Source of the DNA: an uncultured Oscillospiraceae bacterium
GTDB taxonomy: Bacteria; Bacillota; Clostridia; Oscillospirales; Oscillospiraceae
DNA: 64,000 bases
NCBI GenBank assembly: GCA_904419145.1
Contig: CAJFQQ010000003.1
Coordinates: 1-64,000, forward strand
Direction of reading: 5' to 3'
Shown here piece by piece: positions 10,742-39,552 of the stretch (position 1 is its first letter; the number at the start of each line of letters is the position of its first letter). Below the pieces are notes generated by a model that saw only the letters and a list, made by a program, of their open reading frames with translations, was not told the origin of the DNA and ran no database searches. The translations under genes and the position numbers were made by a program.

Positions 10742-11281
10742 TCATTCTAACAGAAAACAGCCGGTATACGCAAGGGTGCATTTCCCGTAGTAATAAGGGA
10801 GGTTGTTATCCTGACAGACCTGGGAAACCAGCATCCCGTATGCCTCCATGGAGGAGATCATTTTGTCTGGGAAGCGGCAGGGGGCGTCTGGATAGGTACA
10901 GGTTTTGCATTGGGTACATCCGCCTGTACCAAGTGCAAGCATGTTGGGGAACTGCTTGCGGAGCTGCTCATAAAAGCGCAGGTAGTTTTCCTTGTGCTTC
11001 TCATTCGTTTCAGCCATGCTCTCATAATCCATTTCATCTTCCAGATTTCCCACGGTCTGGACGAGGATCCCAGCGGTGTACTGCTGGATCCTTTCACGGC
11101 ACGTATCCAAGTCACCGCAGCCGGGAGGACAGCTCCATTTTTTCCCATAGGCCCCACAAGAATTAGTGGCACACATGTCACGCACTTCGGACATTAACTG
11201 GATTGTAGATACCTTGAGCGGCGCCACATGAGTAAACCCAGCCTGTTTTCCCTGTTCAATCAGATCCTGGTAGTTCAGCAT
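10742..11281 (-). CDS. DUF2284 metal-binding protein
   Basis: A 179-residue cysteine-rich protein of the DUF2284 family. Cysteine motifs are CATNSCGAYGKKWSCPPGCG near the N terminus and CTQCKTCTYPDAPCRFP in the second half, suitable for a metal site or Fe-S clusters. Its start codon overlaps the stop of the reactivase gene (ATGCTGA), so translation is likely coupled. DUF2284 genes often sit beside corrinoid methyltransferase genes. Their function is not established; a role in cobalamin reduction or cofactor loading is only an inference. Confidence 0.85.
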   Translation of the reverse strand: MLNYQDLIEQGKQAGFTHVAPLKVSTIQLMSEVRDMCATNSCGAYGKKWSCPPGCGDLDTCRERIQQYTAGILVQTVGNLEDEMDYESMAETNEKHKENYLRFYEQLRKQFPNMLALGTGGCTQCKTCTYPDAPCRFPDKMISSMEAYGMLVSQVCQDNNLPYYYGKCTLAYTGCFLLE

Positions 11282-13008
11282 ACGACGGTTTCCTCCCAAT
11301 TTGGAAATTCTAACTGATCGACAAATTCATCCTGGAACTGCGGCAGAGATGCCAGCTCCAAAAACTCTGCCCTGCGGGCCAAAACTTCCGCCCGATCCCA
11401 CGCAGCGCGATCCTGCAGGACCATTTTTGCACCTTCGCCGGCAGCGTTTCCTACAGGAACCACTTTCTCTCGCAGTTCTGGAGGAATCAGACCGATGTCG
11501 CAGGCGCTATTGGGATCCATATAGTTCCCGAAGGCGCCGGCAATGCAGACTTGCCGGATCTCAGTTATGGAGATGCCCAAACGCTCTGCCAGCAAGCGAA
11601 TGCCGGCACTGATCGCACCCTTTGCCAGCTGCATCTCACGGATATCCTTCTGGGTCAGCACAACATCCGTATCACCCAGGCGATAGACCGGGCCGTTTTT
11701 CAGCCTTCCGCTTTCGTCCAACTGGCCGGAGCGGAGGAGGACAGCGACCAGATCAATGAGGCCGGAACCGCAAATCCCAAGAGCCTTACCGCCGCCGATG
11801 ACTCTCCATTTTACCTCACCATTTTCCAGCCAAACGTGCTCTACAGCACCCTCGGCTCCCCGCATACCGCATTGAATCTTGGCGCCCTCAAAGGCGGGGC
11901 CGGCAGCAGTGGAGCAAGCGATCATCCGATGGCGGTTCCCCATTACAATCTCGCCATTGGTGCCAATGTCGATCATCAACGTCAGATCCTCCAGCTGCTC
12001 CCAACCGCCGGCCAGAAGGCATCCCACAGTATCAGCCCCTACAAAACCGGCAATGACCGGCAGCATCAGAAGCGGGGCCCTTGTGTTAACGTGCAGGCCG
12101 TACTCACAGGCCCGCAGCAGAAGAGATTCGCTGATGGCCGGGTTGTAAGGCGCATGCACCAGGGAGTCGGGAGTAATGGAAAGGAACAGGTGGTGCATAC
12201 AGGTGTTGCCTACCAGGCTGACAGCAAAAACATCCTCCCGGGAGACATCCGCATCCCAGCAGAGCTGTCCAATCAGATGGTCCACAGCCTCCCGGACGCA
12301 GGAAGCCAGCACATCACAGCCCCGCTCCAGCGCATAGTTGGCGCGCATGATAACATCAGCACCATACTGCGCCTGAGGATTTAGCGTGCCGGCCTTGGCG
12401 ACGGTTTCCGCCTGGTCACCCCGCAGAAGATATCCTGCAATGGAAGTGGTTCCCACATCAAAAGCAACCATGTAGAAAGGGGCAGGCTCCTTCCGCAAGG
12501 CTAGAATATGGCAGCGATCCACCACAGCCCAAAGCTTTCCGCCTGTTTCGCGGATCAGGTCTCCCAGGATAGAGCACAATTCCACATCCGGTTCCCAAAA
12601 CTGGCGGCCTGTGGCCACAGACAGTGATTCTTTAAGCCGGGCCCAGTCGGCTGTACTCTCACCGAGTGGGCAAGGGGCCACTTGGATGGGGATTTGTTCC
12701 ACCCAAGGCTCCCAAATATTGCTGCCCTGCGCTTGCTCGCCATTGTCCAAAACACGAAGTTGCTGGTCTCGGGGAAGAGTTTTGAGCTCCAGAGGGCCAT
12801 CAACAAGGGTCTGGCAGGCCTTTACCCTCTGCCAAGGATCTTCGGCGGAATAGCGAATATCTACCAGGCATTTCCCACAGGTCCCCTGGCCGCCACAGGG
12901 GGCATCTGGATGGAGGCCCGCTTCCACCTGGACATCCAACAGGGAAACCCCCTTGTCCACCCAGACGGTCCTTTTCTCATTTGCCAATGTAATTTGAATT
13001 TTATCCAT
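11275..13008 (-). CDS. Corrinoid-protein reductive activator (RamA/RACo-like, ASKHA)
   Basis: This 577-residue protein should reactivate Co(II) corrinoid proteins to Co(I) with ATP. The N-terminal [2Fe-2S] ferredoxin domain has CGGQGTCGKC and a further Cys near KACQT. The C-terminal ASKHA/actin-like ATPase domain has VAFDVGTTSIAGYLL, MIDIGTNGEIVMGN and GGGKALGICGSGLIDLVAVL. The domain order matches RACo-type activators of acetogens rather than RamA, which has C-terminal 4Fe-4S clusters. The ATG at 13008 starts the ferredoxin domain; its ribosome site (GGGGG 12 bp upstream) is weak. It is in operon with the DUF2284 gene. Confidence 0.9.
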   Translation of the reverse strand: MDKIQITLANEKRTVWVDKGVSLLDVQVEAGLHPDAPCGGQGTCGKCLVDIRYSAEDPWQRVKACQTLVDGPLELKTLPRDQQLRVLDNGEQAQGSNIWEPWVEQIPIQVAPCPLGESTADWARLKESLSVATGRQFWEPDVELCSILGDLIRETGGKLWAVVDRCHILALRKEPAPFYMVAFDVGTTSIAGYLLRGDQAETVAKAGTLNPQAQYGADVIMRANYALERGCDVLASCVREAVDHLIGQLCWDADVSREDVFAVSLVGNTCMHHLFLSITPDSLVHAPYNPAISESLLLRACEYGLHVNTRAPLLMLPVIAGFVGADTVGCLLAGGWEQLEDLTLMIDIGTNGEIVMGNRHRMIACSTAAGPAFEGAKIQCGMRGAEGAVEHVWLENGEVKWRVIGGGKALGICGSGLIDLVAVLLRSGQLDESGRLKNGPVYRLGDTDVVLTQKDIREMQLAKGAISAGIRLLAERLGISITEIRQVCIAGAFGNYMDPNSACDIGLIPPELREKVVPVGNAAGEGAKMVLQDRAAWDRAEVLARRAEFLELASLPQFQDEFVDQLEFPNWEETVVC

Positions 13009-22168: not shown

Positions 22169-22217
22169 GCGCCCGTAGCTCAGTTGGATAGAGCGTTAGA
22201 CTCCGACTCTAAAGGCC
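22169..22217 (+). pseudogene. 5' half of split host tRNA-Arg(CCG)
   Basis: Acceptor strand GCGCCCG, D arm and anticodon arm (stem TTAGA/TCTAA, loop CTCCGAC, anticodon CCG) are intact. The sequence leaves the tRNA pattern after AAAGGCC, so the T arm and 3' acceptor are missing. The missing half is found 21 kb away at 43304-43349, where CGGGCGT pairs with GCGCCCG. The TTAGA/TCTAA stem and the C2-G71 pair are shared by the two halves and differ from the intact copy at 22358. Confidence 0.9.
22200..22217 (+). repeat. Left attachment core
   Basis: ACTCCGACTCTAAAGGCC is identical to the copy at 43304-43321. Recombination between the two would remove 21,104 bp and rebuild a complete tRNA-Arg(CCG). 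Confidence 0.88.
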
Positions 22218-22294
22218 TCTCCTGTTGTGATGGGGCGCAAATCGTTGGTATCACTGGCCCGTAGTGGGCAACAAGAAAAATCACCGTGGTTGTT

Positions 22295-22314
22295 GACTAC
22301 TATTTGACCACTAT
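22295..22314 (+). repeat. Left arm-type integrase site (candidate)
   Basis: GACTACTATTTGACCACTAT matches the sequence at 43161-43180 at 19 of 20 positions, in the same orientation. Each contains two GACYACTAT units. Such short direct repeats near both ends are typical arm sites of tyrosine integrases; the role is inferred. Confidence 0.6.
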
Positions 22315-22357
22315 TTCGAAAAATGGTAACTGGCCGCTAAGGCTGTCGCCCATATAT

Positions 22358-22434
22358 GTGCCCGTAGCTCAGTTGGATAGAGCGTTGGACTCCGACTCCA
22401 AAGGCCGCTGGTTCGAATCCAGTCGGGCATACCA
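22358..22434 (+). tRNA. tRNA-Arg (anticodon CCG), intact, inside the island
   Basis: The cloverleaf is complete: acceptor GTGCCCG/CGGGCAT, D arm GCTC/GAGC, anticodon stem TTGGA/TCCAA with loop CTCCGAC, T arm GCTGG/CCAGT with TTCGAAT, discriminator A and encoded CCA. It differs from the split host copy by compensatory changes (T2-A71 instead of C2-G71, and G-C instead of A-T in the anticodon stem). It lies within the island, 140 bp from the left junction, and could replace the disrupted gene. Confidence 0.96.
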
Positions 22435-22467
22435 AGACCGCCGAAAGCAATTGTTTTCGGCGGTCTT
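22434..22467 (+). terminator. Terminator after tRNA-Arg
   Basis: Thirteen-bp perfect stem (22434-22446 with 22455-22467), starting at the end of the encoded CCA, followed by a pyrimidine-rich stretch. Confidence 0.85.
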
Positions 22468-22519
22468 CCTTTACAAATTTGAAATTTCCGGCGGAAGAGA
22501 AAGAGAGAGGTGTGGGATT

Positions 22520-22882
22520 TTGAGTTTCCAACTGATTTGTGTTTTGGTGGTCCTGATGGTTGCCAACCAACTGATTGGAACCGGATACGGCTCCTGGAAA
22601 GAGGGATTCAGTTGGCCTCTGTTCTGTAGGGGCGTTAAAAAAATCTGTTTGCTGTTTGTGGGGTACGGCGCTATCGCATTGACGGTTCACCTGGCTGCGG
22701 ATCACATTCCGAAGATCGAGTATCTCAACGGAATCCTCTTGGAGCCCATTGCAAAATACTTCACCAAGGTCTGCAGCTCTTTGAAGCAGCTGCTCAATGA
22801 GTCGACAAAAACTGCAACCTCTGCTGTGACGGTGGAACCGGCGGAGCCGTCTGTACATCAGGACAACACCCCGGTTGAATAA
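22520..22882 (+). CDS. Small membrane protein, phage-holin-like
   Basis: A 120-residue protein with two to three hydrophobic segments ([16 protein letters not shown] and [19 protein letters not shown]) and a charged, flexible C terminus. The pattern, including [18 protein letters not shown], resembles small phage holin-type proteins of Firmicutes. The TTG start at 22520 is the best in-frame choice, with a purine-rich GAGAGAGG upstream. It lies between the intact tRNA-Arg and the integrase, converging on it, and is the only other mobile-element-like gene. Function on the island is unknown. Confidence 0.55.
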
Positions 22883-22934
22883 ATTCTGAGGTACGCTACC
22901 CTGCCGTAATTGCGGCAGGGCACCACCGATTGTC

Positions 22935-24113
22935 TCAGATCTCCAACCCCTTCTGCAGTATCGCGCTGGCGGCCCTCTTGTTTTTGTCAAAGGCATGGGT
23001 GTAGATGTCCAGGGTGGTGGAGGGCTGGCTGTGTCCCAGCAGACCCGCCACCGTGGCCACGTCTGCCCCGCCTGCAATTAGAAGGCTGGCGTTGGTGTGT
23101 CGCAAGGAGTGGACATTCAGATTCTCTGGCAGGCCGTTCTTTCGGAGGATCAACTTGAAGCGCCAGGTGAAGGTGGTGGGCGTCATAGGCAACCTGCTTC
23201 CGTTTCGCCGGAAGAGAAAGTCCTCCCCCTCCAGCGCCCGACAGTCATAGGTTTCCGTAATGTAAGCGCATTCCTTTTGATACTCCAGCAGGAGCGTCTG
23301 CATCTCCGGAGAGAAGTAGACATATCGGTTCCCAGCCCTGGTCTTTGGCTCCTTGACAAAGATCTCTTCATCTGTAACCTTCACGGCGCTGCGGCAGATG
23401 TGGATGCTCCGTTGCTCCCAATCGATATCCCGCCACTGGAGGGCACAGCACTCTCCTCGCCGTATCCCGGTGGCGATGATCAATTTGAAGTATATCTCAT
23501 ATTTGATACTCTCATTCTCCAGCGCCGTGATAATCTTCTGAACAGTTTCACCGTCCGCAATTTGCTTTTCCCGTTTTCTTCCAGCGTAGCGATAGGTCCG
23601 CCAGGCCGGGTTGTGATGCAGAAAACCGCCCTCCACGGCGTCCGAGAGAATGGTACACAGCGTGGCGTGTACCCCCTCCACGGTGTTTTCGGAGAGCGGC
23701 TTTTTTGTTTCCTGGCTGACGGTTTTGCGCAGTTGGGCATAGAAACTGCGAAAGTGTTCCGGGCGCAGTTCCCGCAGTCGGTAGTGACCTAGGGACGGCA
23801 GGATACGGGCGATATCCTGCCGGTCCCGGCGGACGGTGGACTTGGCCAGTCGGTTCGGAGCCACCTTCTCCAGCCACAACTCGATGTACTTTGCCAGGGT
23901 GATATCTGGGGAGCGCGAGTCCTCATCATCGTTTCGACACGCCCGCTCGAAGAGAACTGCCTGTTCCTGAAGCCATTTCTCCCTCTGTTTGGGTGTCAGA
24001 TCCGCTGGGGGATGGACCGTCTTCTGCTTTGGCTTGATTCGCTTTCCGTTGTAATCATAGCCCATGGAAACCACGATCAGGTAACTCTCTCCGCGTTTTC
24101 GAATGCTTGCCAT
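22935..24113 (-). CDS. int: Tyrosine-type site-specific integrase
   Basis: A 392-residue phage-type integrase. It has an N-terminal arm-binding domain ([15 protein letters not shown]), a SAM-like core-binding domain (about 70-165) and a C-terminal catalytic domain. All catalytic residues are visible: Arg in [10 protein letters not shown] (~218), Lys in KEPKT (~257), His and Arg in HSLRHTN (~335, 338), His in [10 protein letters not shown] (~361) and nucleophile Tyr in DIYTHAF (~371). The enzyme should be active. Its 3' end faces the left attachment site. The ATG at 24113 is chosen because the family starts MASIRKRG; the ribosome site is weak. Confidence 0.95.
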
Positions 24114-24563
24114 TAGCAAACAACATGCAGGAATATACTGAGCGCTCATTGGACTTCTGTGGAAATATAGGTCTATTTGCCAACGAAAATTTCATACGAA
24201 AAACGAAGGAGCAGTGATCAAAACTGCCAGCACTGTAACAGACAATACAGCATTGCTGCAGAAAAGCCCCATTGTCAGAGGAATAGAGCCAGTAACAGCC
24301 AGTAAATTTGCTCTAGCGTCCTGCACGACTGGCGCAGGTTATTCCGGAAGATGTAGAGATGCGTAAGAGCGCCTGCAGCAGTTAGGCGCAGCCGGCGCAG
24401 TCAGCAGATACCGCATGATAGAGTTGAACAGACATCTATCTCGGTCTCTTCGTCGCAAGATAGATGCCTGTTCTGTTTATAGTGATTCAGTTTGTTTGCC
24501 AGTTCATCAGACGGAAGTCACAGATGAAACCGTCTGGAGATTGTTTCTTTACTTTTATAACTT
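24114..24563. other. Non-coding gap between integrase and cofactor genes
   Basis: About 450 bp with no supported gene. It should hold the integrase promoter (minus strand) and contains one strong hairpin at 24426-24473, given separately. Confidence 0.5.
24426..24477 (+). terminator. Strong hairpin, probable terminator
   Basis: A 16-bp stem with one A/C mismatch (24426-24441 with 24458-24473), followed on the plus strand by TGTTT. On the minus strand it lies about 90 bp after the mog-moaE gene and may end that transcript. Confidence 0.6.
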
Positions 24564-25451
24564 TTACAATTCTTCCTCTGTAACGCAACGGGTCTTGAGG
24601 TCTGTCACAAGGAACTCCAGTGCGGCAACAACGTGGGGACGGATATCACCGCCTACCAAGACTCGCATCAAATCGTCCCCGACCTTCAGTCCTCCGTGGT
24701 TGAGCCAGACGCGGACATGGTAGATACCCGGCAGGCTGCGGGTTTTCTCCACAGCCTCCTGCACCTTCTTTTCGTCGTAGGTAAAACGCATTCCGGATAC
24801 CGATTTGGCCTGCGCATTCCCCTCCCGGACCCGGGAGCGGGCGGTTTCCCGTACCACGCCGTTGTGGAATAGGTACATGCCAATTTTCCCCGCGCTTTCC
24901 AGAGCCTTTGCTTCCCGAAGCCAGGCATCAGCTGAGGGTGGTGCCTCGCCTAATGTCGGCGCGGCGCAGTCCGCCGACCCTTGGGAACAGAGCATGTCAA
25001 GTCCGTGGCCGATGGCTCCCAGCACAGCACTCAGATTCTCCCTGGACGCCTTTTTGCTGCCGGGGAGGTTTACAATCAGTGTGCGCTTCCGAATCCCTGC
25101 TACCTCCCTGGAGAGGCAGCCTCTTGGGGTAATGCGCATGCTCTCCGCGCGCATGGCTTCAGGGATTCCGGGGGTGGCCCGCTCGATTACCGCCAACGTG
25201 GCCTCCGGCGTCACGTCCCGGGGAGAGAAACCGGTCCCGCCGGTGGTCAGCACCAGAGAGAACTGTTCCTCATCGGCACAGTGGATAAGTTCCTGTCGGA
25301 TCAACTCCTGTTCATCGGGGAGAATCGCGGTGTGTGTCACTTGGTATCCTGCGTCCTCCAGTATACCTACCAGGGAAGGTCCGCTGGTGTCCACCCGCTC
25401 ACCCCGGGCACCCTTGTCGCTGATGGTAATGACTGCTGCGGTATACCGCAT
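24564..25451 (-). CDS. MogA/MoaB-MoaE fusion protein (pterin cofactor synthesis)
   Basis: The 295-residue protein joins two cofactor-synthesis domains. Residues 1-~160 are MogA/MoaB-like (AAVITISDKGARGERVDTSG, VLTTGGTGFSPRDVTPEAT, NLPGSKKA) and should adenylylate molybdopterin. The C-terminal ~125 residues (KIGMYLFHNGVVRETAR to VTDLKTRCVTEEE) resemble a divergent MoaE, the large subunit of molybdopterin synthase, which works with MoaD. The ATG at 25451 follows AGGAGG with 7-bp spacing. It is downstream of moaA. The MoaE assignment is less certain than MogA. Confidence 0.82.
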   Translation of the reverse strand: MRYTAAVITISDKGARGERVDTSGPSLVGILEDAGYQVTHTAILPDEQELIRQELIHCADEEQFSLVLTTGGTGFSPRDVTPEATLAVIERATPGIPEAMRAESMRITPRGCLSREVAGIRKRTLIVNLPGSKKASRENLSAVLGAIGHGLDMLCSQGSADCAAPTLGEAPPSADAWLREAKALESAGKIGMYLFHNGVVRETARSRVREGNAQAKSVSGMRFTYDEKKVQEAVEKTRSLPGIYHVRVWLNHGGLKVGDDLMRVLVGGDIRPHVVAALEFLVTDLKTRCVTEEEL

Positions 25452-25669
25452 TGTTATTCCTCCTGTCTTTATAGTGTCGCCTACTCCAGCACGCCGCAAT
25501 GGAAATGGGTAAAGTGTTCCAGGGGACCTCAGAGAAATCTTGCGGCCTCTTCTGCACCATGGAGGGAAAACTCGGCAAACCTGCAGGCGCGTCTGCCCGG
25601 TCCGTTACGATGGCGGGAAACGCTACCACAGGAATTTCGGGGGCGTTTTCTACCTCTCCCATTCCCAAC
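25452..25669 (-). other. Gap between moaA and mog-moaE with an uncertain short frame
   Basis: A TTG-initiated minus-strand frame of about 89 codons begins right after the moaA stop and overlaps the start of mog-moaE (start at 25668: LGMGEVENAPEIPVVAFPAI). It looks moderately protein-like but matches no family I know. It may be the remnant of a lost cofactor gene or only spacer. Confidence 0.3.
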
Positions 25670-26620
25670 TTACCCTCCGATTTGATTCATGTTCCGCTCG
25701 GCATGGCTCTGGTGCCCATACGTTAGCGGTGCATGGCAGGGAGGCTTTGCTAAGATGGCCCGCTCCATCTGCTGTGCCATCTCCTCTTGGGAGAGGCCCT
25801 TAATGGGGAATTCTGCCGCGGCGTGGAGGCAGGGTTTTACATATCCGTCAGCGGTCAGACGGATACGGTTGCACTGGGCACAGAAATGGGTGCTCACCGG
25901 AGTGATCAGCCCAATGCTGCCCAGTCCCCCCGGCAGGCAGTACCGCTTGGCCACACCGCCGTCCTCCGGTAGCGCCTTCAATTCCGGCAGGCGCTCCAGC
26001 ACCGCGGTACAGGGGAGATACGCCTCCGGGCCAAACCCTAGGCCTCCTATGGGCATCAACTCAATGAACCGCACATCCACCGGATACTGCCGGGTCAAGT
26101 CCGCCAGGGCGAGGATCTCACTGTCGTTGAATCCGCCAATCAGAACCGAGTTGATTTTGACCTTTTCAAATCCAGCCGTCAATGCCGCATCCAGGCCGCG
26201 CAGGGCGTCCTCCAGACGGCCGCGCCGGGTGATAAACGCATATTTATCCCGATCCAGCGTGTCCAGACTCAGATTTACCCGGGTGAGCCCGGCCTCCCGC
26301 AGCGGCTTTGCTAGTTCCGGTAGAAGGATGCCGTTGGTGGTGATACATATTTCTCGGATGCCATCCACCACTCCGCAGCGGCGGCAAATGGACAGGATAT
26401 TCTTCTTCACCAGGGGTTCCCCGCCGGTGAGTCGCAGTTTTCGGATGCCCAAGGAGGCCGCCGCCTCCACCGCCCGTACCATCTCGTCCTCGGTGAGCAT
26501 GATCTCCCGAGACTTTTTTGCAATGCCGTCCTCCGGCATACAGTACCGGCAGCGGAGGTTGCAGCGCTCCGTCACCGACAGGCGTAGATAGGTGATTTCC
26601 CGGCCGTATGGATCTTGCAT
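25670..26620 (-). CDS. moaA: GTP 3',8-cyclase MoaA
   Basis: MoaA is the radical SAM enzyme that, with MoaC, turns GTP into cyclic pyranopterin monophosphate, the first step of Mo/W-pterin synthesis. The 316-residue protein has the SAM cluster motif CNLRCRYC (Cys20, 24, 27), a TGGEPL segment, a C-terminal second cluster motif (FCAQCNRIRLTADGYVKPCLH, Cys around 255-272) and the characteristic C-terminal GG (RNMNQIGG). The ATG at 26620 starts the conserved DPYGREITYLRLSVTERC region. A promoter is at 26691-26719. MoaC is not found in the island. Confidence 0.95.
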   Translation of the reverse strand: MQDPYGREITYLRLSVTERCNLRCRYCMPEDGIAKKSREIMLTEDEMVRAVEAAASLGIRKLRLTGGEPLVKKNILSICRRCGVVDGIREICITTNGILLPELAKPLREAGLTRVNLSLDTLDRDKYAFITRRGRLEDALRGLDAALTAGFEKVKINSVLIGGFNDSEILALADLTRQYPVDVRFIELMPIGGLGFGPEAYLPCTAVLERLPELKALPEDGGVAKRYCLPGGLGSIGLITPVSTHFCAQCNRIRLTADGYVKPCLHAAAEFPIKGLSQEEMAQQMERAILAKPPCHAPLTYGHQSHAERNMNQIGG

Positions 26621-26909
26621 GGTGTTCACCGCCCCTTCATGGATTCCCGACCAAACGCGCCGGGTTCCTCTGCTTTTTCTGTCCGCACGCAAAATATACA
26701 TCCATCTGGTACCTGTCAAACGTAACATTTGGCGATTGGAATATAGATTTAGACGGTCTCTCCCTTGCAGCGCAAACAGCGCACTTGGAAGAGAATCATC
26801 TTTTCAAAATAGGCAGGCTTGTTCAGGAGCCGTTGCCGGAATCCAATGCATTGTTCCCAACGGTTCCAGCCTTTGTACTAAACATCCCATTTTCAGAAGA
26901 CTGCTGGGA
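26621..26909. other. Gap between tupC and moaA
   Basis: About 290 bp holding the moaA promoter. No protein-like frame or clear RNA element is seen; the minus-strand sequence shows short inverted segments around GGAACCGTTGGG but nothing I can name. Confidence 0.4.
26691..26719 (-). promoter_or_regulatory. Promoter of moaA-mog-moaE
   Basis: On the minus strand TTGACA (26714-26719) and TATTTT (26691-26696) are 17 bp apart, giving a leader of about 65 nt. Confidence 0.65.
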
Positions 26910-27560
26910 TCAGAGGGCGTAAAAGTCCAGAAAAGCCCGGGTGTCGGCGCAGCGTGGGTGTAAGAGCACTTGTTCGGCAGTTCCCTGCTCTACCAGATGT
27001 CCGTTTTGGAGGAAAAATACCTGGCCGGCGACCCGCCGTGCCTGTGTCAGGGAATGGGTAACCAGTACTACGGTACAGCTGGTCCTGGCTTGATACTCCA
27101 GAAGTATCTTTTCGGCCAGCAGCGTGGCTGCAACATCCATGGCTGCAGTCGGCTCGTCCAGGATGAGGAGGGGATGGTCCTCTATCAGGATCCGAGCCAG
27201 GGCCAGCCGCGCGGTTTCACCGCCGGAAAGCCCTTTGGCACTCTGATGGGCCAGACCGGCCAATCCAAAAGTTTCCAACTGTTTCATGGCGCGCTCCCGT
27301 CCGGCACCTGTGATCTGCAGGTTGTGCAGTACGCTCATCCGGAAGGGATAGGAGCGCTGGGGCATGTATCCCACCCGATCCATACAGGAAAATCTGCCGT
27401 CATCCGGTTTCAGTACGCCGGCCAAGATCCGGGCTAGGGTGGATTTGCCGCTGCCATTGGCGCCGATGATGGTGTGGATAGTGCTGTCCGCCAGTTCCAG
27501 GGCGGGCAGATCCAGAACCTTGCGGTTGCCATAGGTCTTGGTAATGGGAGGGAGTTTCAT
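26910..27560 (-). CDS. tupC: Tungstate ABC transporter ATP-binding protein
   Basis: A 216-residue ABC ATPase with Walker A GANGSGKST, signature LSGGETARLALARIL, Walker B LLILDEPTAAMD and the H-loop His in VTHSLTQ. It energises the permease encoded just upstream. The ATG at 27560 overlaps the permease stop (ATGA), so the two are translationally coupled; a longer upstream frame lacks similarity. Tungstate specificity is inferred from the TupA-like binding protein in the same operon and from the cofactor genes around it. Confidence 0.9.
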   Translation of the reverse strand: MKLPPITKTYGNRKVLDLPALELADSTIHTIIGANGSGKSTLARILAGVLKPDDGRFSCMDRVGYMPQRSYPFRMSVLHNLQITGAGRERAMKQLETFGLAGLAHQSAKGLSGGETARLALARILIEDHPLLILDEPTAAMDVAATLLAEKILLEYQARTSCTVVLVTHSLTQARRVAGQVFFLQNGHLVEQGTAEQVLLHPRCADTRAFLDFYAL

Positions 27561-28243
27561 CCTTCCAGCCTCCAGTGCAACAGGGCCACTCCGGCATTCA
27601 ACACCAGGGAGATGGCCAGCAGGATTATACCCAGGGCCAGGGCTGTAGTGAAGGCCCCCATATTGGTATAGTTCATGATGGCGGTGGTCATCACGTTGGT
27701 TTTGTAGGCAATGGCGCCTCCTACCATGGATACGGCACCTACCTCTGCAAATGCCCGGCCCAGGCCCAGAAGATAGGCGCTCACCAGTTGGTATTGGCTC
27801 TCGTTGATGATCAGTAGCAATATTCTGCCTCTGCTCAGGCCCATTCCAAGGGCGGTTTCCCGGATGTCGGGGGCAACCGTTGACACATGGGATTCCAGAC
27901 TGCCAGCGATCAGGGGGACCAGCAAAATCACCTGTGCAATGACCATACCCGTCACCGTGTACAATAGCCGCAGATGGCGCAGAGGCCCCACCCCGGAGAA
28001 GAGCATATAGCACACCAGACCTACTACTACCGGCGGAAGGCCCATCAGCGTCCGGTTGATTACGACCAGGGTTCGCTTACCCCGACCGGCATAACTCCCC
28101 AGCAGCACCCCCAGAGGGGCACCCAGCAGCAGGGCAATCATGGAACTGGATAGGGCCATGCGCAGCGTGGTAACCAGGATAATCCCCAACTGCCGGTCTC
28201 CGGAGGTGATTAGGGCCAAAGCCTGGACAAAGGCGGTCTTCAT
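27557..28243 (-). CDS. tupB: Tungstate ABC transporter permease
   Basis: A 228-residue inner-membrane permease with about five to six helices. The BPD_transp_1 coupling loop is visible in ETALGMGLSRGRILLLIINES, followed by AYLLGLGRAFAEVGAVSMVGG, which closely resembles TupB. The start is preceded by GGAAGGGAGAG. It follows tupA after a 95-bp gap that holds an intergenic hairpin and ends in tupC with a 4-bp overlap. Confidence 0.9.
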   Translation of the reverse strand: MKTAFVQALALITSGDRQLGIILVTTLRMALSSSMIALLLGAPLGVLLGSYAGRGKRTLVVINRTLMGLPPVVVGLVCYMLFSGVGPLRHLRLLYTVTGMVIAQVILLVPLIAGSLESHVSTVAPDIRETALGMGLSRGRILLLIINESQYQLVSAYLLGLGRAFAEVGAVSMVGGAIAYKTNVMTTAIMNYTNMGAFTTALALGIILLAISLVLNAGVALLHWRLEG

Positions 28244-28338: not shown

Positions 28339-29385
28339 TTACTCCATGACGCCGTTGTTGGCCTGGAAGGTAAGGAAGGTGGCCTTGTCCGAGAGAATGT
28401 AGGCGCCCGTCTCCTCGGCCATGGTCAGGCAGACGCCCATGCCTGCGTTGGAGTAGGTGTACCAGTCTGTATAGTCCTCCACAGAGGCGGCGTCAACAGT
28501 GATGCCCAGTTCCTCAGGCCACAGGGAGATTTCCTTGGTATGGGTACCGGACTGGTCTCCGCGGGAGACGAAGGGATACTTGCCTTCAGCAATGGCGGCG
28601 AAGGCATCCCGGACGCTGGCTGCGTTCTTCACCCCTGCGGGGTCGGCGGAAGGACCGCACAGGACGAAGTAGTTGTACATGAAAGTCAGCCGTTCGCTGT
28701 CAAAACTGGGCAGGACATAGGAGTAACCGCCGGCAACAAATTCTTCCTCCTGGCTCTTGGAGTGGACCAGAAGCAGGTCAGCGTTTCCGCTTTTGGCGTT
28801 GGCGATAGCGTTACCTGTTCCGGCAGAAGTGACCTCCACTGTGTAGCCATAGGTATCCTCAAATATGGGCAGCAGATAGCCCAGCAGGCCGGAGTCATTC
28901 ACAGAGGTGGTGGTAGACAGACGGATCACCTTCGTCTCCTCGGTGGCCTGGGGTATCTCGGCTGTGGAGACCGGCGCGCCCTCACTCAGATAGAAGAGGT
29001 ACTCACCGTAGTCGGCGTAACCGTACTCTGTTGCGGTGGTCTCCCCCTCCTCGGAGAGCATCCAGTTGATGAGGGCAGCGGCCCCCTCGGTGTTAATGTA
29101 AACATCGGACACAGCATTGCCGTCCGCGTCCACAAAGGGCGCATCGGGATTGACGGCCAGGAGGGAGTAGTTGTTGATCATGTCGTCGTCGGCTTCGTAC
29201 AGAATCGTCAGATCGACGCCCTCCTCAGGCTCCTCAGTACCGGGGGTCTCATCCTCAGCGGTATCGTTTTCGGACGTGCTATTCGCAGGGGTTTGGTCCT
29301 CGGCGCCGTTTTCCTGTGCGCACGCGGTCAAAAATGTTGCAAGCAGGGAGAGAGACAGCAAGAGGACAGCAATTTTTTTCATCAT
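28339..29385 (-). CDS. tupA: Tungstate-binding lipoprotein, TupA-like, apparently circularly permuted
   Basis: A 348-residue lipoprotein with a signal peptide and lipobox (LTACAQ, Cys22), an acidic linker (~25-57), then a binding domain. The family signature TTTSVNDSGLL, normally near the mature N terminus, lies at ~158. The protein ends at ILSDKATFLTF, where a normal TupA would still have its last ~80 residues. Those residues (ILYEADDDMINNYSLLAVNP and TEGAAALINWMLSEEGE, then GEYLF) stand instead at ~58-135. This fits a circular permutation joined by a short linker (~136-152). The ATG at 29385 follows TGGAGATGG. Confidence 0.88.
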   Translation of the reverse strand: MMKKIAVLLLSLSLLATFLTACAQENGAEDQTPANSTSENDTAEDETPGTEEPEEGVDLTILYEADDDMINNYSLLAVNPDAPFVDADGNAVSDVYINTEGAAALINWMLSEEGETTATEYGYADYGEYLFYLSEGAPVSTAEIPQATEETKVIRLSTTTSVNDSGLLGYLLPIFEDTYGYTVEVTSAGTGNAIANAKSGNADLLLVHSKSQEEEFVAGGYSYVLPSFDSERLTFMYNYFVLCGPSADPAGVKNAASVRDAFAAIAEGKYPFVSRGDQSGTHTKEISLWPEELGITVDAASVEDYTDWYTYSNAGMGVCLTMAEETGAYILSDKATFLTFQANNGVME

Positions 29386-30563: not shown

Positions 30564-32037
30564 GGCGCTTACCTCCCAACAGCGGACTGCCCGGTCCGTC
30601 CTGGGTCACATCCCAGGGGGAAATCCCCAACTCTCTGGCCAGGATTTCCAGCACCTGATCCCCGCACCAACTGCCCTGACACCGGCCCAGGCCCGCACCC
30701 ACCCGGCGTTTGACCCCATCCAAGGTTACTGCTCCCCGGCGGATGGCGTCCATGATCTCCCCCTCAGTGACATCCTCACAGCGGCAGATCACCCGGCCAT
30801 AGGTGGGATCGGTCTGCACCAGAGCCCGGCGGGCTGTGCTGTCCAGATCCCGTGGCCGGGGCGTCGGAGTCCGGCATGGATTAAAATTCGGGTTGGGGGC
30901 ATCCTTTTCCAGGTACGTTGCTGCCTGACCGGCCAGCATTGTACCCAGAGCGTCGGCGCAGGTAAGCCCCGGGGTTTTGATCCCGATGAGGGACCACAGC
31001 CCCGGGCAGGGGTTGTCAATGGTAAAACTGTGGATTCCCCGGGTCTCGGGTACCCAGGCATCGCATTCTCTCCGGACATAAAAGGGGTTGGGACGGACGG
31101 CCCCGAAGGCACGGATCACCTGCCCTAGATCCAGGCCAGGGACGATCCGTGCTGCCATACGACGGAGGAAATCCAGTCCTTCCAATGTAACAGCCCGGTC
31201 GGGGCAGTCTCCGCCGGGCTGCTCCGAGGGACCCAGGAGAAGTTTGCCGTCTGTGGTGGGCACCAGGGTGAGCCCCTTACCCTTTTCCTCCGGCTCCTGA
31301 AAAATTACATGGCGGACATAAGGACCTGCCGTCTGATCCAGGACCAGATAGTCTGCCCGGTCGGGAATTACCCGCACGGTGGGAGACGTGCACAGTTCCT
31401 GAATCCGGTGGGCCTCCAGCCCGCAGCAATTGAGAACCACTCCGGCCCGGATGGTGTGAGGTCCGGCGGTGACGATCCAGTCTTTTCCCTCTCGGCACAG
31501 GGCGGTTACCGGAGCGTTCAAATAGATCTGGCAGCCGTTGGCCTTGGCATTCTCGTAGGCGGCAAAACACAGCGCCCAGGGATCCGTTACTCCAGTGCCG
31601 GGGGCCAAAAGAGCAGAAGAGATTCCAGAAGCCAATCCGGGCTCCAACGCCACAGCCTGTGTTCCAGTGAGGATCTCCAGGTTCTCTACGCCATTTTCCA
31701 GTCCCTGATGGTATTTGCGCCGTACAACATAGTCGCCCCGGGGACCGTAACTCACCAGCAGGGATCCTCGGCGGACAAAGGGGACGGACAACTGGGCGCA
31801 CAACTTTTCGAAAGCCCGGTTGGCCTGTACACACAGCCGGGCTTTCAGTGTCCCAGGCTTGTTGTCGCAGCCGGTGTATATGATGGCGCTGTTGCCGCGG
31901 GAAATGCCGGTACAAACGTCCTCCCGGGCCTCTATCAATGCACAGCGCAGTTGATAAGATGTCAGATGGCGGGCAGCAAAGCAGCCCAGAAGGCCGCCTC
32001 CCAGCACCACTGCATCAAAGCGCTCTTCAGTAGACAC
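30553..32037 (-). CDS. FAD-dependent dehydrogenase with BFD-type [2Fe-2S] domain (GlpA-like)
   Basis: A 494-residue FAD enzyme with a DAO-type fold (FDAVVLGGGLLGCFAARHL at the N terminus, GRNxA-like GISRGNSAIIYTGCDNKPG) like the glycerol-3-phosphate dehydrogenase GlpA. A C-terminal BFD-like domain has CRCEDVTEGEI and CQGSWCGDQV cysteines. The GTG start overlaps the preceding moeA-type gene by 11 bp. With its partner (29655-30563) it looks like an anaerobic dehydrogenase complex. Why it is co-translated with cofactor genes is unclear; it could deliver electrons or handle a substrate linked to the aldehyde pathway (inference). Confidence 0.82.
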   Translation of the reverse strand: MSTEERFDAVVLGGGLLGCFAARHLTSYQLRCALIEAREDVCTGISRGNSAIIYTGCDNKPGTLKARLCVQANRAFEKLCAQLSVPFVRRGSLLVSYGPRGDYVVRRKYHQGLENGVENLEILTGTQAVALEPGLASGISSALLAPGTGVTDPWALCFAAYENAKANGCQIYLNAPVTALCREGKDWIVTAGPHTIRAGVVLNCCGLEAHRIQELCTSPTVRVIPDRADYLVLDQTAGPYVRHVIFQEPEEKGKGLTLVPTTDGKLLLGPSEQPGGDCPDRAVTLEGLDFLRRMAARIVPGLDLGQVIRAFGAVRPNPFYVRRECDAWVPETRGIHSFTIDNPCPGLWSLIGIKTPGLTCADALGTMLAGQAATYLEKDAPNPNFNPCRTPTPRPRDLDSTARRALVQTDPTYGRVICRCEDVTEGEIMDAIRRGAVTLDGVKRRVGAGLGRCQGSWCGDQVLEILARELGISPWDVTQDGPGSPLLGGKRHEL

Positions 32038-33934
32038 GGCGCACCCGTCCCGGCTGATCCAGCGTGTACCCCCCCAACTTTTCCAGCCGAGCCCGGAACG
32101 CCGGCCCCGCCAGGATCTCCAATACCCGGCGGATCATAGAGGTGTCCCAGGCATAGTCGGGGATGATTAGATCGTACTGCTCTACGCAGACAGGCAAGAA
32201 ATCTAATCCATAGATTTTTGCCGCAGACCAGATCCCCATGCCTGCATCGGCAGTGCCTCCGGCGATCTGGGCAGCCACAGCAGTATGGGTAAATTCTTCC
32301 CGCTCATAGCCGTAAACTGTGGCGGGGTCTACCCCTTCCTTCCGGCACAAGTAGTCGGCCAAAATACGGGTGCCGGAGCCTTTTTGCCTATTTACATAAC
32401 GTATTCCGGAACGGGCGATATCCCTAAAGCCAGTGAGGCCCAGAGGATTGCCGGATGCCACCATCAGACCCTGGGTGCGTCCCACGCACTCCACCTGATA
32501 CACACCGCCGTTTGGAAACTGTTTTTCCAGAATGGCTGTGTTATAACTACCGTCGGCCTCATTGAGTAAATGGCAGCCGGCCATATGGGTTTCCCGCCGG
32601 CGGATGGCCATAAGGCCCCCCATGGACCCCACGTGGGAGGAACTCATAAAGGAGGAGGGATCCGCTTGGTGGATGAGATCGGCTAATTCGTCCAGCAGCG
32701 GGTCGTGGCTTCCGATGGCCACCAGGGTATGTTCCAGATCACAGGCGGGACGCAGGAGGCGGACAGGAACCTCAGACCCTGCTTCCAGCCCTTCGCTCCC
32801 CTGAGGAATTTCCAGAATGCCGTCAGCCTTCATAAAAGAGGAGACCACCCCGCTGCCCCGGGCCAAGGGTGCGGCCACAAGCCGCCCTCCTACCTGTCCC
32901 AGGCGCACCCGGACAAATTCCTGATATTTCAGGCTGGATACCACCCGGCGGCTCAGCACCGCTTGGGCTGTAACCGGCTGCTCCGCTCCGCGGCCCAGGC
33001 ACAGATCCACCAAAGGCCGCAGCAGCTGTTCCATGACAATGATGCCGGACACCGGGTATCCGGGCACCCCAAGAATGGGCTTGCTTCCCCGGTGGCCCAG
33101 AATGGCAGGTTTACCCGGCTGGATGGCAATGCCATGGCAGAAGACCTCGCCCACTTGGGAGATGACGGTGGCGGCATAGTCCTCACGTCCGGCGGAGGAG
33201 CCTGCGTTAATCAGAACCATGTCGCACTCATTCAGCGCTTGTGTGAGGGCAGTGCGGATCGCTTCTTCCTGGTCAGGGACGATGGGATAGACCTGGGGCG
33301 TTGCACCCCACTCCTCCAGCATGGCCGAGAAGATGGAGGAGTTGAACTCCACCACATCCCCGGGCTTTGGGTTGGCGGTGGGAAGGACCACCTCGTCCCC
33401 GGTGGGGATAATACCGACAATCGGCTTTGCCAGCACTTCCACCTCCAACACACCCGCGGCGAGCATGGCCCCGATGGCGGCAGGAGAGACGGACATATGA
33501 CCGGGCAAAAGCATCTCTCCGGCGCAGATATCCTCACCGATCTGACGCACATGCTGCCAGGGAGTTGCGGCCTGGTGGATAATTGCTTGGCCCGCGGCAA
33601 AGACGACTTCCTCCACCATAATCACGGCATCCCGTTCCTCGGGCAGGGGGTCACCGGTGTCCACCACCGTGTATTGCTCCGGAGTGAGAGAGATCGGGGT
33701 AGTATCGCTTGCGCCGAACGTGTCTGCCGCGGAGACGGCGATGCCGTCCATGGCACAGGCGGGATAGTGGGGCGCACAGATGTGGGCGTACACCGCCCGG
33801 GCGGTTATCCGTCCTCCGGCAGACTGAACCGGAATGGTTTCCGACCGAGGGGTAAAGCCCTGTTCCTGCAGCAGGGCCAGGTACTGGGTTCTGGCCTCGT
33901 CCAGAGGCCGGTTGTTGAGATATTGAAAAGCCAT
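32027..33934 (-). CDS. MoeA-like protein fused to periplasmic-binding-type domain
   Basis: A 635-residue fusion. Residues 1-~400 are a MoeA-type molybdopterin molybdenumtransferase (PACAMDGIAVSAADTFG, NAGSSAGREDYAATVI, GVPGYPVSGIIVMEQLL). The rest resembles a PBP-like/molybdate-binding domain (GSHDPLLDELADLI, VNRQKGSGTRILADYL, GMGIWSAAKIYGLDFLPV). The family is common in anaerobes and is thought to insert or sense the metal. The ATG at 33934 follows GGGGAGG. Together with the separate moeA upstream it gives the island two MoeA-type proteins, one of which may be specific for tungsten (inference). Confidence 0.87.
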   Translation of the reverse strand: MAFQYLNNRPLDEARTQYLALLQEQGFTPRSETIPVQSAGGRITARAVYAHICAPHYPACAMDGIAVSAADTFGASDTTPISLTPEQYTVVDTGDPLPEERDAVIMVEEVVFAAGQAIIHQAATPWQHVRQIGEDICAGEMLLPGHMSVSPAAIGAMLAAGVLEVEVLAKPIVGIIPTGDEVVLPTANPKPGDVVEFNSSIFSAMLEEWGATPQVYPIVPDQEEAIRTALTQALNECDMVLINAGSSAGREDYAATVISQVGEVFCHGIAIQPGKPAILGHRGSKPILGVPGYPVSGIIVMEQLLRPLVDLCLGRGAEQPVTAQAVLSRRVVSSLKYQEFVRVRLGQVGGRLVAAPLARGSGVVSSFMKADGILEIPQGSEGLEAGSEVPVRLLRPACDLEHTLVAIGSHDPLLDELADLIHQADPSSFMSSSHVGSMGGLMAIRRRETHMAGCHLLNEADGSYNTAILEKQFPNGGVYQVECVGRTQGLMVASGNPLGLTGFRDIARSGIRYVNRQKGSGTRILADYLCRKEGVDPATVYGYEREEFTHTAVAAQIAGGTADAGMGIWSAAKIYGLDFLPVCVEQYDLIIPDYAWDTSMIRRVLEILAGPAFRARLEKLGGYTLDQPGRVRRVY

Positions 33935-33975
33935 GCTCTTTTCCTCCCCCAATAAAGAATGATATATTTTGCATA

Positions 33976-35202
33976 TCAGTCGGCAATAAAAATATTGACT
34001 AGTACCTGGGTGCCGGCAGGGAAGCCCTCACAGTCCCGTGGGATGCAGAAATAGCCGTCCGCTCCAGCCAGTGCAGTTATAAGCCCCGATTTGCCCCGGA
34101 TAGGCAGAGCCTCCAGTCCTTGGGAACCCTGCCGGAGGATTGCCCCGTTGTATTGTGACCGGCCGTGGTTGGCGGAAACTTCTTCGACCAGCCGGGCGGT
34201 CACCTGCCGTTGGCGGAGGCTCCTCCCCTCCAGACGGGCGAGGATCGCCCGGACGAAAAGATGTGTACAGAATAGTGCAGCGACCGGATGTCCCGGGAGT
34301 CCTACCATGGCCTTGCCCGACCCGGTTCTTCCCAGGAGGGTAGGCTTGCCAGGTTTCATGGCGATACCGTGAAAAAGAATCTTACCCAGGGCGGACATGA
34401 CCCGGTAAGCCGCATCTTTTTCCCCCACAGAACTTCCTCCAGACAAGATCACGGCGTCACACTCCGTCAATCCCTGCTCCATCGTCCGTGTAAGACAGTC
34501 CTCTTGATCAGGGACGATGCCGTAAAACCGTGGCAGAACTCCGGCCTGTTCCAACAGTGCACAGACCAGAGGACCGTTTACGTCCCGGACTTGACCGATG
34601 GCGGGGATTTGTTCCGGCGGCACCAGTTCGTCCCCGGTGGAAATGACCCCTACCCGGAGACGGGGTACCACAGGTACAGACGTCATCCCCAGGGCGGCCA
34701 GAGCACCGATGTCCTGAGGCTCCAGCCGACGGCCGGCGGGGAGCACCCGGTCTCCGGGCTTTACATCATCTCCACGGAAAATCATGTTGTGACCCGGGGC
34801 CACACTTTTGAGGATTCCGATGGTGCCGTCGCCGTAATCCTCACACAGTTCCAGCATCTGCACTGCATCCGCTCCCTGAGGCACTTCGCCTCCTGTGGGG
34901 ACGGCGGCACACTGCCCCGGGGCAAGGGTCAGACCCGCTCCTTCGCCCATCCGAACCTCCCCAGACAGGATAAGTTGGGCGGGCAGGGCGTCAGAGCAGC
35001 CGAACGTGTCCGCTGCCCGGACGGCGTAGCCGTCCACAGTGGAGCGGTGGAAGTCTGGCACATAGGCGTCAGCTGTCACATCCAGAGCCAGTACCCGCCC
35101 CAAAGCGGAGGAGAGGGTGACGTTCTCTGGAGGACGGTCCAGGGGAACAAAAGAAGTACGGATGATTTCCAGCGCCTCGTCCGGGGTCTTGACATTGAGC
35201 AT
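33976..35202 (-). CDS. moeA: Molybdopterin molybdenumtransferase MoeA
   Basis: MoeA inserts Mo or W into adenylylated molybdopterin. The 408-residue protein has the expected four-domain order: STVDGYAVRAADTFG (~60-74), VPTGGEVPQGADAV, the MPT-binding GVISTGDEL and LSGGSSVGEKD (~270), and GLPGHPVAALFCTHLFV. The start has a strong AGGAGGG site. It is the first gene of a minus-strand operon (moeA, moeA-fusion, two flavoproteins) and is divergent from the ThiF-like gene over 113 bp. Confidence 0.94.
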   Translation of the reverse strand: MLNVKTPDEALEIIRTSFVPLDRPPENVTLSSALGRVLALDVTADAYVPDFHRSTVDGYAVRAADTFGCSDALPAQLILSGEVRMGEGAGLTLAPGQCAAVPTGGEVPQGADAVQMLELCEDYGDGTIGILKSVAPGHNMIFRGDDVKPGDRVLPAGRRLEPQDIGALAALGMTSVPVVPRLRVGVISTGDELVPPEQIPAIGQVRDVNGPLVCALLEQAGVLPRFYGIVPDQEDCLTRTMEQGLTECDAVILSGGSSVGEKDAAYRVMSALGKILFHGIAMKPGKPTLLGRTGSGKAMVGLPGHPVAALFCTHLFVRAILARLEGRSLRQRQVTARLVEEVSANHGRSQYNGAILRQGSQGLEALPIRGKSGLITALAGADGYFCIPRDCEGFPAGTQVLVNIFIAD

Positions 35203-37749: not shown

Positions 37750-39552
37750 ATGGGCAACGGATATGTAGGAACCGTCCTGCGGGTGAATCTGGCTAAGGGC
37801 ACCATCATCAAGGAGCCCCTGAACCGGAAGAATGCCGAGGAATATGTAGGTGCACGTGGACTAGGCACCAAATATTACTGCGATGAGTGCGATCCCAACT
37901 GCGATCCCCTGGGACCGGACAACAAACTGATCTTCATGACCGGACCCCTCACTGGCACATGTGCCACTTCCTCCGGCCGCTACAACGCCGTAGCCAAAGC
38001 GCCCCTTACCGGGACAATCGGCGCGGCCAACTCTGGCGGACACTTCGGACCTGAACTCAAATACGCCGGGTACGACGGCATCATCTTTGAGGATGTCTCC
38101 GACCACCCGGTTTACCTGTACATCAACGATGACACGGTGGAACTCCGGGATGCCTCCCATTTGTGGGGCAAGGATGTGTATGAGACCACGGACGCCCTGA
38201 TTGAAGAACTAGGGGATGAGTTCCGGATCGCCTGCATTGCCCCCACCGGGGAGAATGGATGCCTCTTTGCCGGCATTATGAACGACAAGCACCGGGCTGC
38301 CGGCCGCGGCGGTATCGGCGCGGTGATGGGTTCCAAGAAACTCAAAGCCGTGGCCGTCCGGGGCACCGGCGCCATCACCGTAGCCCGGCCTGAGCCTTTC
38401 TTCCAGGCCTGTATGGACGCGCGGGATAAACTCAAAGCCCACCCGGTCACCGGTGCCGGCCTCTCCGCTTACGGGACCCAGATCCTGGTAAACATTGTCA
38501 ATGCCGCTGGCGGCCTGCCCCTCTGCAATGGTCGGGATGGATCGGTTTTCGACCAAGCCGACGATATCTCCGGCGAGACCCTAGCCGCCAAGTATCTGTT
38601 GCGGAACAAGGGCTGTTTCGGCTGTTCCATCGGCTGCGGCCGGGCTGTGGAGATCAAGGACGGCCCCTTCAAGTCCAAGGGTGAGGGCCCTGAGTATGAG
38701 GCAGGCTGGTCCTTCGGCGCCGACTGCGGCATCAACGACCTGGCTGCGGTATGCGACGCTAACTTCCTGTGCAACCAGTACGGCATCGACCCCATCACCA
38801 TGGGTGCCACCGTGGCCTGCGCCATGGAACTCTTTGAAATGGGCGCCATCCCTGAGTCCGATATCGGTTTCCCCTTGCGCTTCGGTGATGCCGCGGCCAT
38901 GGTGAAGGCCGTGGAGATGACCTGCAAGGGTGAGGGCTTTGGAAAGGTTATGGGCCTTGGCTCCTACCGCATGGCGGAGAAGTACGGACACCCGGAACTC
39001 TCCATGTCTGTGAAGAAGCAGGAGATGCCCGCTTACGATGGCCGGGCCATCCAGGGCATCGGCCTGGAGTACGCGACCTCCAACCGGGGCGGTTGCCACG
39101 TCCGGGGCTACATGATCTCCCCTGAGGTGCTGGGTCTGCCGGTGAAGATGGACCCCCTAGTCACAGAAGGCAAGGCAGGTATGCTCAAGACCTTCCAGGA
39201 TCTCACTGCCCTGGTGGATGCGACCGGCATCTGCCTCTTCACAACCTTCGGCATCGGCCTGCCTGAGGTGGCTGCACAGTACCGGGAGGCCGTGGGCAGC
39301 GACGAGAGCGACGAAGAGATCCTCCTCAAGGGAGAGCGGATTTGGAACCTGGAGAAACAGTTCAACATCGCTGCCGGGGTGGAAAAGGATACTCTGCCGC
39401 CCCGTCTGCTCCGGGAGAAGTTGCCCAACGGCCCGGCAGAGGGTAAAGTTAATGACCTTTACACTATGCTGGCGGAGTACTACGAGGCGCGGGGCTGGAC
39501 GGCTGACGGAATCCCCACGCCGGAGAAACTGGAACAACTGCATCTGAAATAA
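37750..39552 (+). CDS. Aldehyde:ferredoxin oxidoreductase (tungsten-pterin enzyme, AOR family)
   Basis: The 600-residue catalytic subunit should oxidise aldehydes to carboxylic acids using a bis-pterin tungsten cofactor and one [4Fe-4S] cluster. The N terminus ([12 protein letters not shown]) and [14 protein letters not shown] are typical of AOR domain 1, and [20 protein letters not shown] binds the pterin. Cluster ligands are Cys289, Cys292, Cys296 (CFGCSIGC) and Cys495 in DATGICLF. Family members use tungsten, and the island supplies a tungstate transporter. Substrate specificity within the AOR/FOR/WOR group cannot be read from the sequence. Confidence 0.95.

Follow-up and report, generated by a model that had tools for sequence, protein, structure and literature searches.

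Characterized TupABC systems are specific for tungstate, and both these systems and tungsten enzymes are common in gut bacteria; the aldehyde ferredoxin oxidoreductase family uses virtually only tungsten (PMC11980592). In DaG20 TupA, lobe A is made up of residues 2-76 and 201-251, and thus holds both chain ends, lobe B is made up of residues 91-200, and the site residues are T9-S12, H59, R118, T124, and D170 (PMC5517513). Natural circular permutations of the binding proteins of ABC importers have rarely been described. In the open literature we found one, that of a type I sugar binder, TpMglB-2 (Tp0684), which forms with its relatives the 'type Ic' glucose-binding proteins and for which the authors considered that tethering possibly favored the permutation (PMC4990184). 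For a permuted TupA, or any other type II oxyanion binder, no report was found in the open literature, whose coverage leaves subscription journals mostly outside.

Here, we describe a gene from an uncultured Oscillospiraceae bacterium, located in a 64,000-nucleotide window (the whole stretch of DNA analyzed). From sequence comparison and structure prediction, we are confident that its product is a natural circular permutation of TupA, predicted to be a lipid-anchored tungstate binder that serves TupBC, with a probable single origin in Clostridia and an anchor that would lie on lobe B. The permuted TupA would then be such a case for a type II oxyanion binder.

Results

The initial annotation had assigned positions 28339-29385 to a TupA-like protein with its two parts in reversed order. 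An open reading frame (ORF) that encodes 348 residues does fill this span, reading from an ATG at 29385 to a stop at 28339-28341 on the minus strand, and it was designated a circularly permuted tupA from two TupA matches in reversed order and 51 relatives that are colinear over the conserved parts. All its parts lie on the minus strand. Residues 1-56 (29218-29385) comprise, as judged from the sequence, the pLDDT values, and the lipobox pattern, a signal peptide, the lipobox LTAC with Cys23, and an acidic tether. The canonical C-terminal segment follows, now at the front (residues 57-135; 28981-29217), reading VDLTILYEADDDMINNYSLLAVNPDAP...GAAALINWMLSEEG...YGEYLFYL. A linker between the old C and N termini (residues 136-152; 28930-28980) leads into the canonical N-terminal part (residues 153-343; 28357-28929), which was delimited by Pfam, phmmer, and the alignment of relatives. 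This part carries the oxyanion-site residues TTTS158-161, His208, Arg275, Thr281, and Asp333, and the body to residue 348 reads TTTS...SRGDxSGTH...SDKATFLTFQANNGVME.

Profile searches placed the two parts separately. Pfam PBP_like_2 matched residues 148-341, and NCBIfam TupA matched in two stretches, the main one covering profile positions 16-193 of 266. In a phmmer search against PDB sequences, residues 153-341 were placed on residues 6-179 of the 3muq chain and residues 57-107 on residues 182-233, i.e., in reversed order. A profile made from 57 canonical TupA C-termini, run on the whole permuted protein, matched residues 57-133 with 59.9 bits, whereas the best of 200 shuffles of the segment reached 3.0 bits, and a C-terminal TupA segment thus does precede the TTTS body, as the initial annotation had it. 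When the parts were restored to canonical order, NCBIfam TupA matched as a single piece over positions 7-264 with 148.3 bits, compared to only 116.4 bits when the segment in the restored sequence was shuffled. A profile of the permuted family, run against canonical genomes of the class sample, matched in two adjoining pieces with the order swapped; in genome G283, for example, profile positions 116-320 lie at 11087-11659, followed by positions 35-111 at 11663-11860. The window protein ends 5 residues past the last conserved position (NGVME), where its canonical sisters run on with LDLKILL, consistent with the proposal that the chain stops where the canonical C-terminal segment would begin. Counted against the permutation was the difference in identity to a canonical sister, which is 38% for the moved segment (26 of 68 residues) and 58% for the remainder (102 of 177).

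A scan of genome contigs for homologs with the same order found it at 58 loci in separate assemblies, with best segments 59-88% identical. The hosts were Oscillospiraceae, Lachnospiraceae, other Clostridia, and Slackia (Actinomycetota), and included three named strains, Flavonifractor sp. An92, Slackia equolifaciens DSM 24851, and Pseudoflavonifractor phocaeensis An507. The rearranged TupA is a family shared by gut and other anaerobic bacteria. Classing all fetched loci gave 57 canonical and 63 permuted reading frames, a few of the latter being the same gene fetched again, as with the window's own. The linker has 17 to 20 residues in all 63 permuted frames, which corrects the original estimate of about 15. 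The reversal of the parts stood, on the 3muq matches and the canonical genomes. A canonical C-terminal segment elsewhere in the protein, which had been named as evidence against a permutation, was absent from every permuted ORF checked, and this objection is thereby removed. In an alignment of 51 proteins in permuted order, the site residues were invariant except Thr160 (at least 90%). A lipobox was found in 46 of the 63 permuted frames, and the median distance from its Cys to the domain was 32.5 residues in permuted versus 22 in canonical proteins, both figures being approximate since a simple pattern was used. Two insertions specific to the permuted clade, at residues 83-95 (29101-29139, minus strand) and 296-305 (28471-28500, minus strand), are missing from the aligned canonical sisters, and the former has a conserved DADGN loop that resembles a possible metal-binding loop.

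The permuted tupA is uncommon and patchy in its distribution, being present in 3 of 147 genomes of the order and 4 of 391 of the class, and in the phylum sample the window's own copy was the sole one among the matches listed. No canonical TupA that could act as a backup was found in the window's own genome. One metagenome-assembled genome has a permuted tupA broken into two reading frames (L040:3815-4903) by a frameshift or sequencing error, and genome G114 has, in addition to a permuted tupA (L069), a single long frame (L066) in which a LysM-like and proline-rich region precedes a TupA-like domain of canonical order. At L135:3786-4883 (minus strand), beside a canonical tupABC, a TupA-like domain lies behind a LysR-type helix-turn-helix and likely represents a tungstate-sensing regulator.

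Using the 51-row alignment, AlphaFold2 predicted the permuted TupA with a mean pLDDT of 85 (236 residues at 90 or above) and a pTM of 0.76; the model was confident throughout residues 60-345, and residues 1-53 were mostly under 50. The mean pLDDT was 94 for a canonical sister, L100. The elements of the permuted model run E59 E70 H99 H112 H123, followed by E153 H160 H167 E182 H190 E204 H211 E233 H258 E272 H283 (H299) E309 H316 E329 H334, and those of the L100 model run E7 H14 H21 E36 H44 E58 H64 E76 H105 E119 H127 E149 H156 E169 H174, followed by E187 E197 H215 H228 H239. The two orders are related by a cyclic shift, save for helix 299-305, which lies inside a permuted-clade insertion. In order-dependent structural alignments with D. 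alaskensis TupA (5my5), 178 residues of the permuted model were aligned (Z 14.3, rmsd 2.5), the match ending at residue 185 of the chain and leaving out the moved part, compared to 245 residues, up to residue 251, for the L100 model (Z 34.8, rmsd 1.3). The PstS protein 4h1x aligned in order, with model residues 56-272 on chain residues 103-289 (172 residues, Z 14.0, rmsd 3.9), as would be expected if the moved segment and the chain that follows pack as one lobe. Homology, element order, model confidence, and the order-dependent alignments together suggest that residues 57-135 take the position that the C-terminal segment has in canonical TupA.

Tyr73 of the window protein aligns with Tyr201 of DaG20 TupA, and the break lies near canonical residue 185, within lobe B. 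These positions imply a new path, in which the permuted chain would run from lobe B (57-72) into lobe A (73 to about 230) and through a central strand (233-245) back into lobe B (to 346). Lobe A would thus be continuous and lobe B discontinuous, with both inter-lobe crossings retained. Since both new termini would be in lobe B, the lipid anchor is also predicted to be on lobe B, and not on lobe A as in the canonical protein.

In trees built from the two parts together, and in trees from the N part by itself, the permuted forms made up one side of one branch (SH-aLRT 99), and a single change of order was needed on the tree compared to about 38 in shuffles. Several independent origins of the permutation were therefore rejected. 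On the both-parts tree, the permuted forms grouped with seven canonical TupAs from families f130, f70, f47, and f96 (SH-aLRT 95). Every row outside had the canonical order, including the TupA regulator with a helix-turn-helix and the TupA domain behind the LysM-like region, and we therefore took the canonical order as ancestral, a polarity read from a tree that has no true outgroup. The two Slackia loci (L016 and L019), where tupB, tupC, and a pair of moeA genes accompany the permuted tupA, fell inside the Clostridia clade, and this nesting suggests that the permuted tupA crossed between phyla into Slackia. Together, the reversed homology, the 63 frames of the same order, the single clade beside canonical TupA, and the cyclic shift of elements in the AlphaFold2 model support the circular permutation that the initial annotation had proposed.

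Circular permutations usually arise by tandem duplication followed by loss of the outer parts. For the permuted tupA, a single origin in Clostridia is probable, and the gene may have taken this route of tandem duplication and loss. The old chain ends, both in lobe A, would have been joined through the linker and the chain cut open within lobe B, near canonical residue 185, and the permuted tupA would then have been inherited together with its own tupBC, also into Slackia. No fused duplicated intermediate was found among 123 ORFs, the sole flagged case (L119) being a weak split match. A canonical sister genome (G804) carries tupA-tupB-tupC-tupA', each an individual gene, and this indicates no more than that duplication of tupA occurs nearby. 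At L133:5757-6650 (plus strand), a second, diverged tupA follows tupA-tupB-tupC and has changed motifs (TTTS to TTET and SGTH to SEVY).

In the window, the permuted tupA is part of a minus-strand series that reads, in order of transcription, moeA (33976-35202), moeA fused to a PBP_like domain (32027-33952; PRK14498, 712.5 bits; PF12727), two FAD-type oxidoreductases, the permuted tupA, the permease gene tupB (27557-28243; NCBIfam ABC_perm1, 174.8 bits; TupB, 125.4 bits), tupC for the ATP-binding protein (26910-27560; ABC_tran), which starts at 27560 with a 4-base overlap with the tupB end, moaA for GTP 3',8-cyclase (25670-26728; TIGR02666 above its cut-off), and a moaB-MoaE-like fusion. This fusion is a single ORF of 311 amino acids (24564-25499, minus strand) that joins a MoaB-type domain (PF00994) to a MoaE-like domain (PF02391). 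At all 54 loci with enough flank, the permuted tupA was followed by tupB and then tupC, and the TupB proteins of permuted loci formed one clade (SH-aLRT 100). A tungsten-type aldehyde ferredoxin oxidoreductase, the only one found in the genome, is encoded on the plus strand (37750-39552; PF01314, 471 bits; PF02730, 275 bits), 8.4 kb from the permuted tupA, and 20 of the 58 relatives had related ORFs in their flanks. No known riboswitch was found between 18000 and 40000, where just two tRNAs exceeded Rfam's thresholds. In the region 22169-24149, a tyrosine recombinase gene (22935-24149) lies near two tRNA genes, which may mark the place where a mobile element integrated.

The most likely function of these genes is that of a TupABC-type tungstate importer, and extracellular capture of tungstate by the permuted protein is very probable. 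The lipid-anchored TupA would pass tungstate to the TupBC importer encoded directly downstream, and the imported tungstate would supply the pterin-cofactor pathway and the aldehyde oxidoreductase.

Discussion

The reversed order could have other causes than a permutation within tupA. The window's genome is in 80 contigs and its relatives are mostly metagenome-assembled, as an error of assembly or gene calling would have it, but the relatives have one open frame with conserved residues, and an assembly artifact was rejected on account of the permuted-order relatives at 58 loci in separate assemblies, including the three named strains; we give this explanation practically no weight. It is also very improbable that the front segment completes the fold of a neighboring molecule, making a swapped dimer and not a permuted monomer. 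A single-chain prediction in which the segment is attached through a linker is compatible with such a swap, yet the linker is short and nearly constant, the single-chain model is confident throughout residues 60-345, and PstS aligns in order over the junction. That the front segment was recruited from another TupA-like gene, with the same order reached by fusion and truncation, would fit the lower identity of the segment to the sister clade, its insertion missing from the canonical forms aligned, and the tupA copies close together in a sister genome; against it stands the match of the segment to the profile of canonical C-termini (59.9 bits), and we regard such a recruitment as distinctly unlikely.

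A protein permuted as described could still have molybdate or another oxyanion as its main physiological ligand, which we consider unlikely. Tungstate binding is a prediction here, the two clade insertions could bear on ligand binding, and the genome encodes a molybdopterin oxidoreductase and two MoCoBD_2 enzymes that may use molybdenum; because of these other pterin enzymes, molybdate is possible as a further ligand. Against molybdate as the main ligand stand the tree position beside TupA, and not ModA or WtpA, the retention of the TupA site residues (TTTS, His, Arg, Thr, and Asp), the aldehyde ferredoxin oxidoreductase genes here and in the flanks of relatives, and the tungstate specificity of characterized TupABC systems (PMC11980592).

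Taking the gene as a permuted TupA for tungstate, we note that its living canonical sisters, 58% identical over the larger part, make folding, affinity, and lobe closing directly comparable. Whether the permutation is adaptive, with the lobe-B anchor and the discontinuous lobe B altering the closing on tungstate or the docking on the co-inherited TupB, seems rather doubtful; if so, permuted TupABC would be a mechanically distinct importer. Canonical-order profiles match the permuted TupA just partly, and TupA-based surveys of tungsten use in the gut may therefore miss complete importers.

Compared to canonical TupA (5my5; 3lr1 of Geobacter; NCBIfam NF041772), the permuted protein is homologous in both parts, has the same site residues, is followed by tupB and tupC, and is a predicted lipoprotein, as canonical TupA is in many Gram-positives. 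It differs in the reversed parts, with the C-terminal segment no longer last, in the termini, which would be in lobe B, and in the insertions with the DADGN loop and helix 299-305. It scored 134 bits with NF041772, and 148 once re-ordered, far below the equivalog cut-off of 400 bits, which was reached by none of the 147 genomes of the order, canonical ones included. Since the order is reversed in all 63 permuted frames, we place the protein in a permuted subfamily that derives from TupA, and not in canonical TupA. PstS-type phosphate-binding proteins (4h1x) likewise have a two-lobed oxyanion-binding fold, but differ in ligand and in having their own family's chain order, with 13% identity. TpMglB-2 is also an ABC-importer binding protein, a natural permutation and a tethered lipoprotein, and its type occurs in Gram-positive gut bacteria too (PMC4990184). 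Membership in the type Ic group was rejected, as it was TupA and type II oxyanion binders that our protein matched in sequence and fold, and only the permutation is in common. TpMglB-2 has a type I fold and a sugar ligand, and its N-lobe strands were moved to the C terminus with a fourth lobe crossing added (PMC4990184), whereas in the permuted TupA it is the C-terminal segment that went to the front, with both crossings apparently kept.
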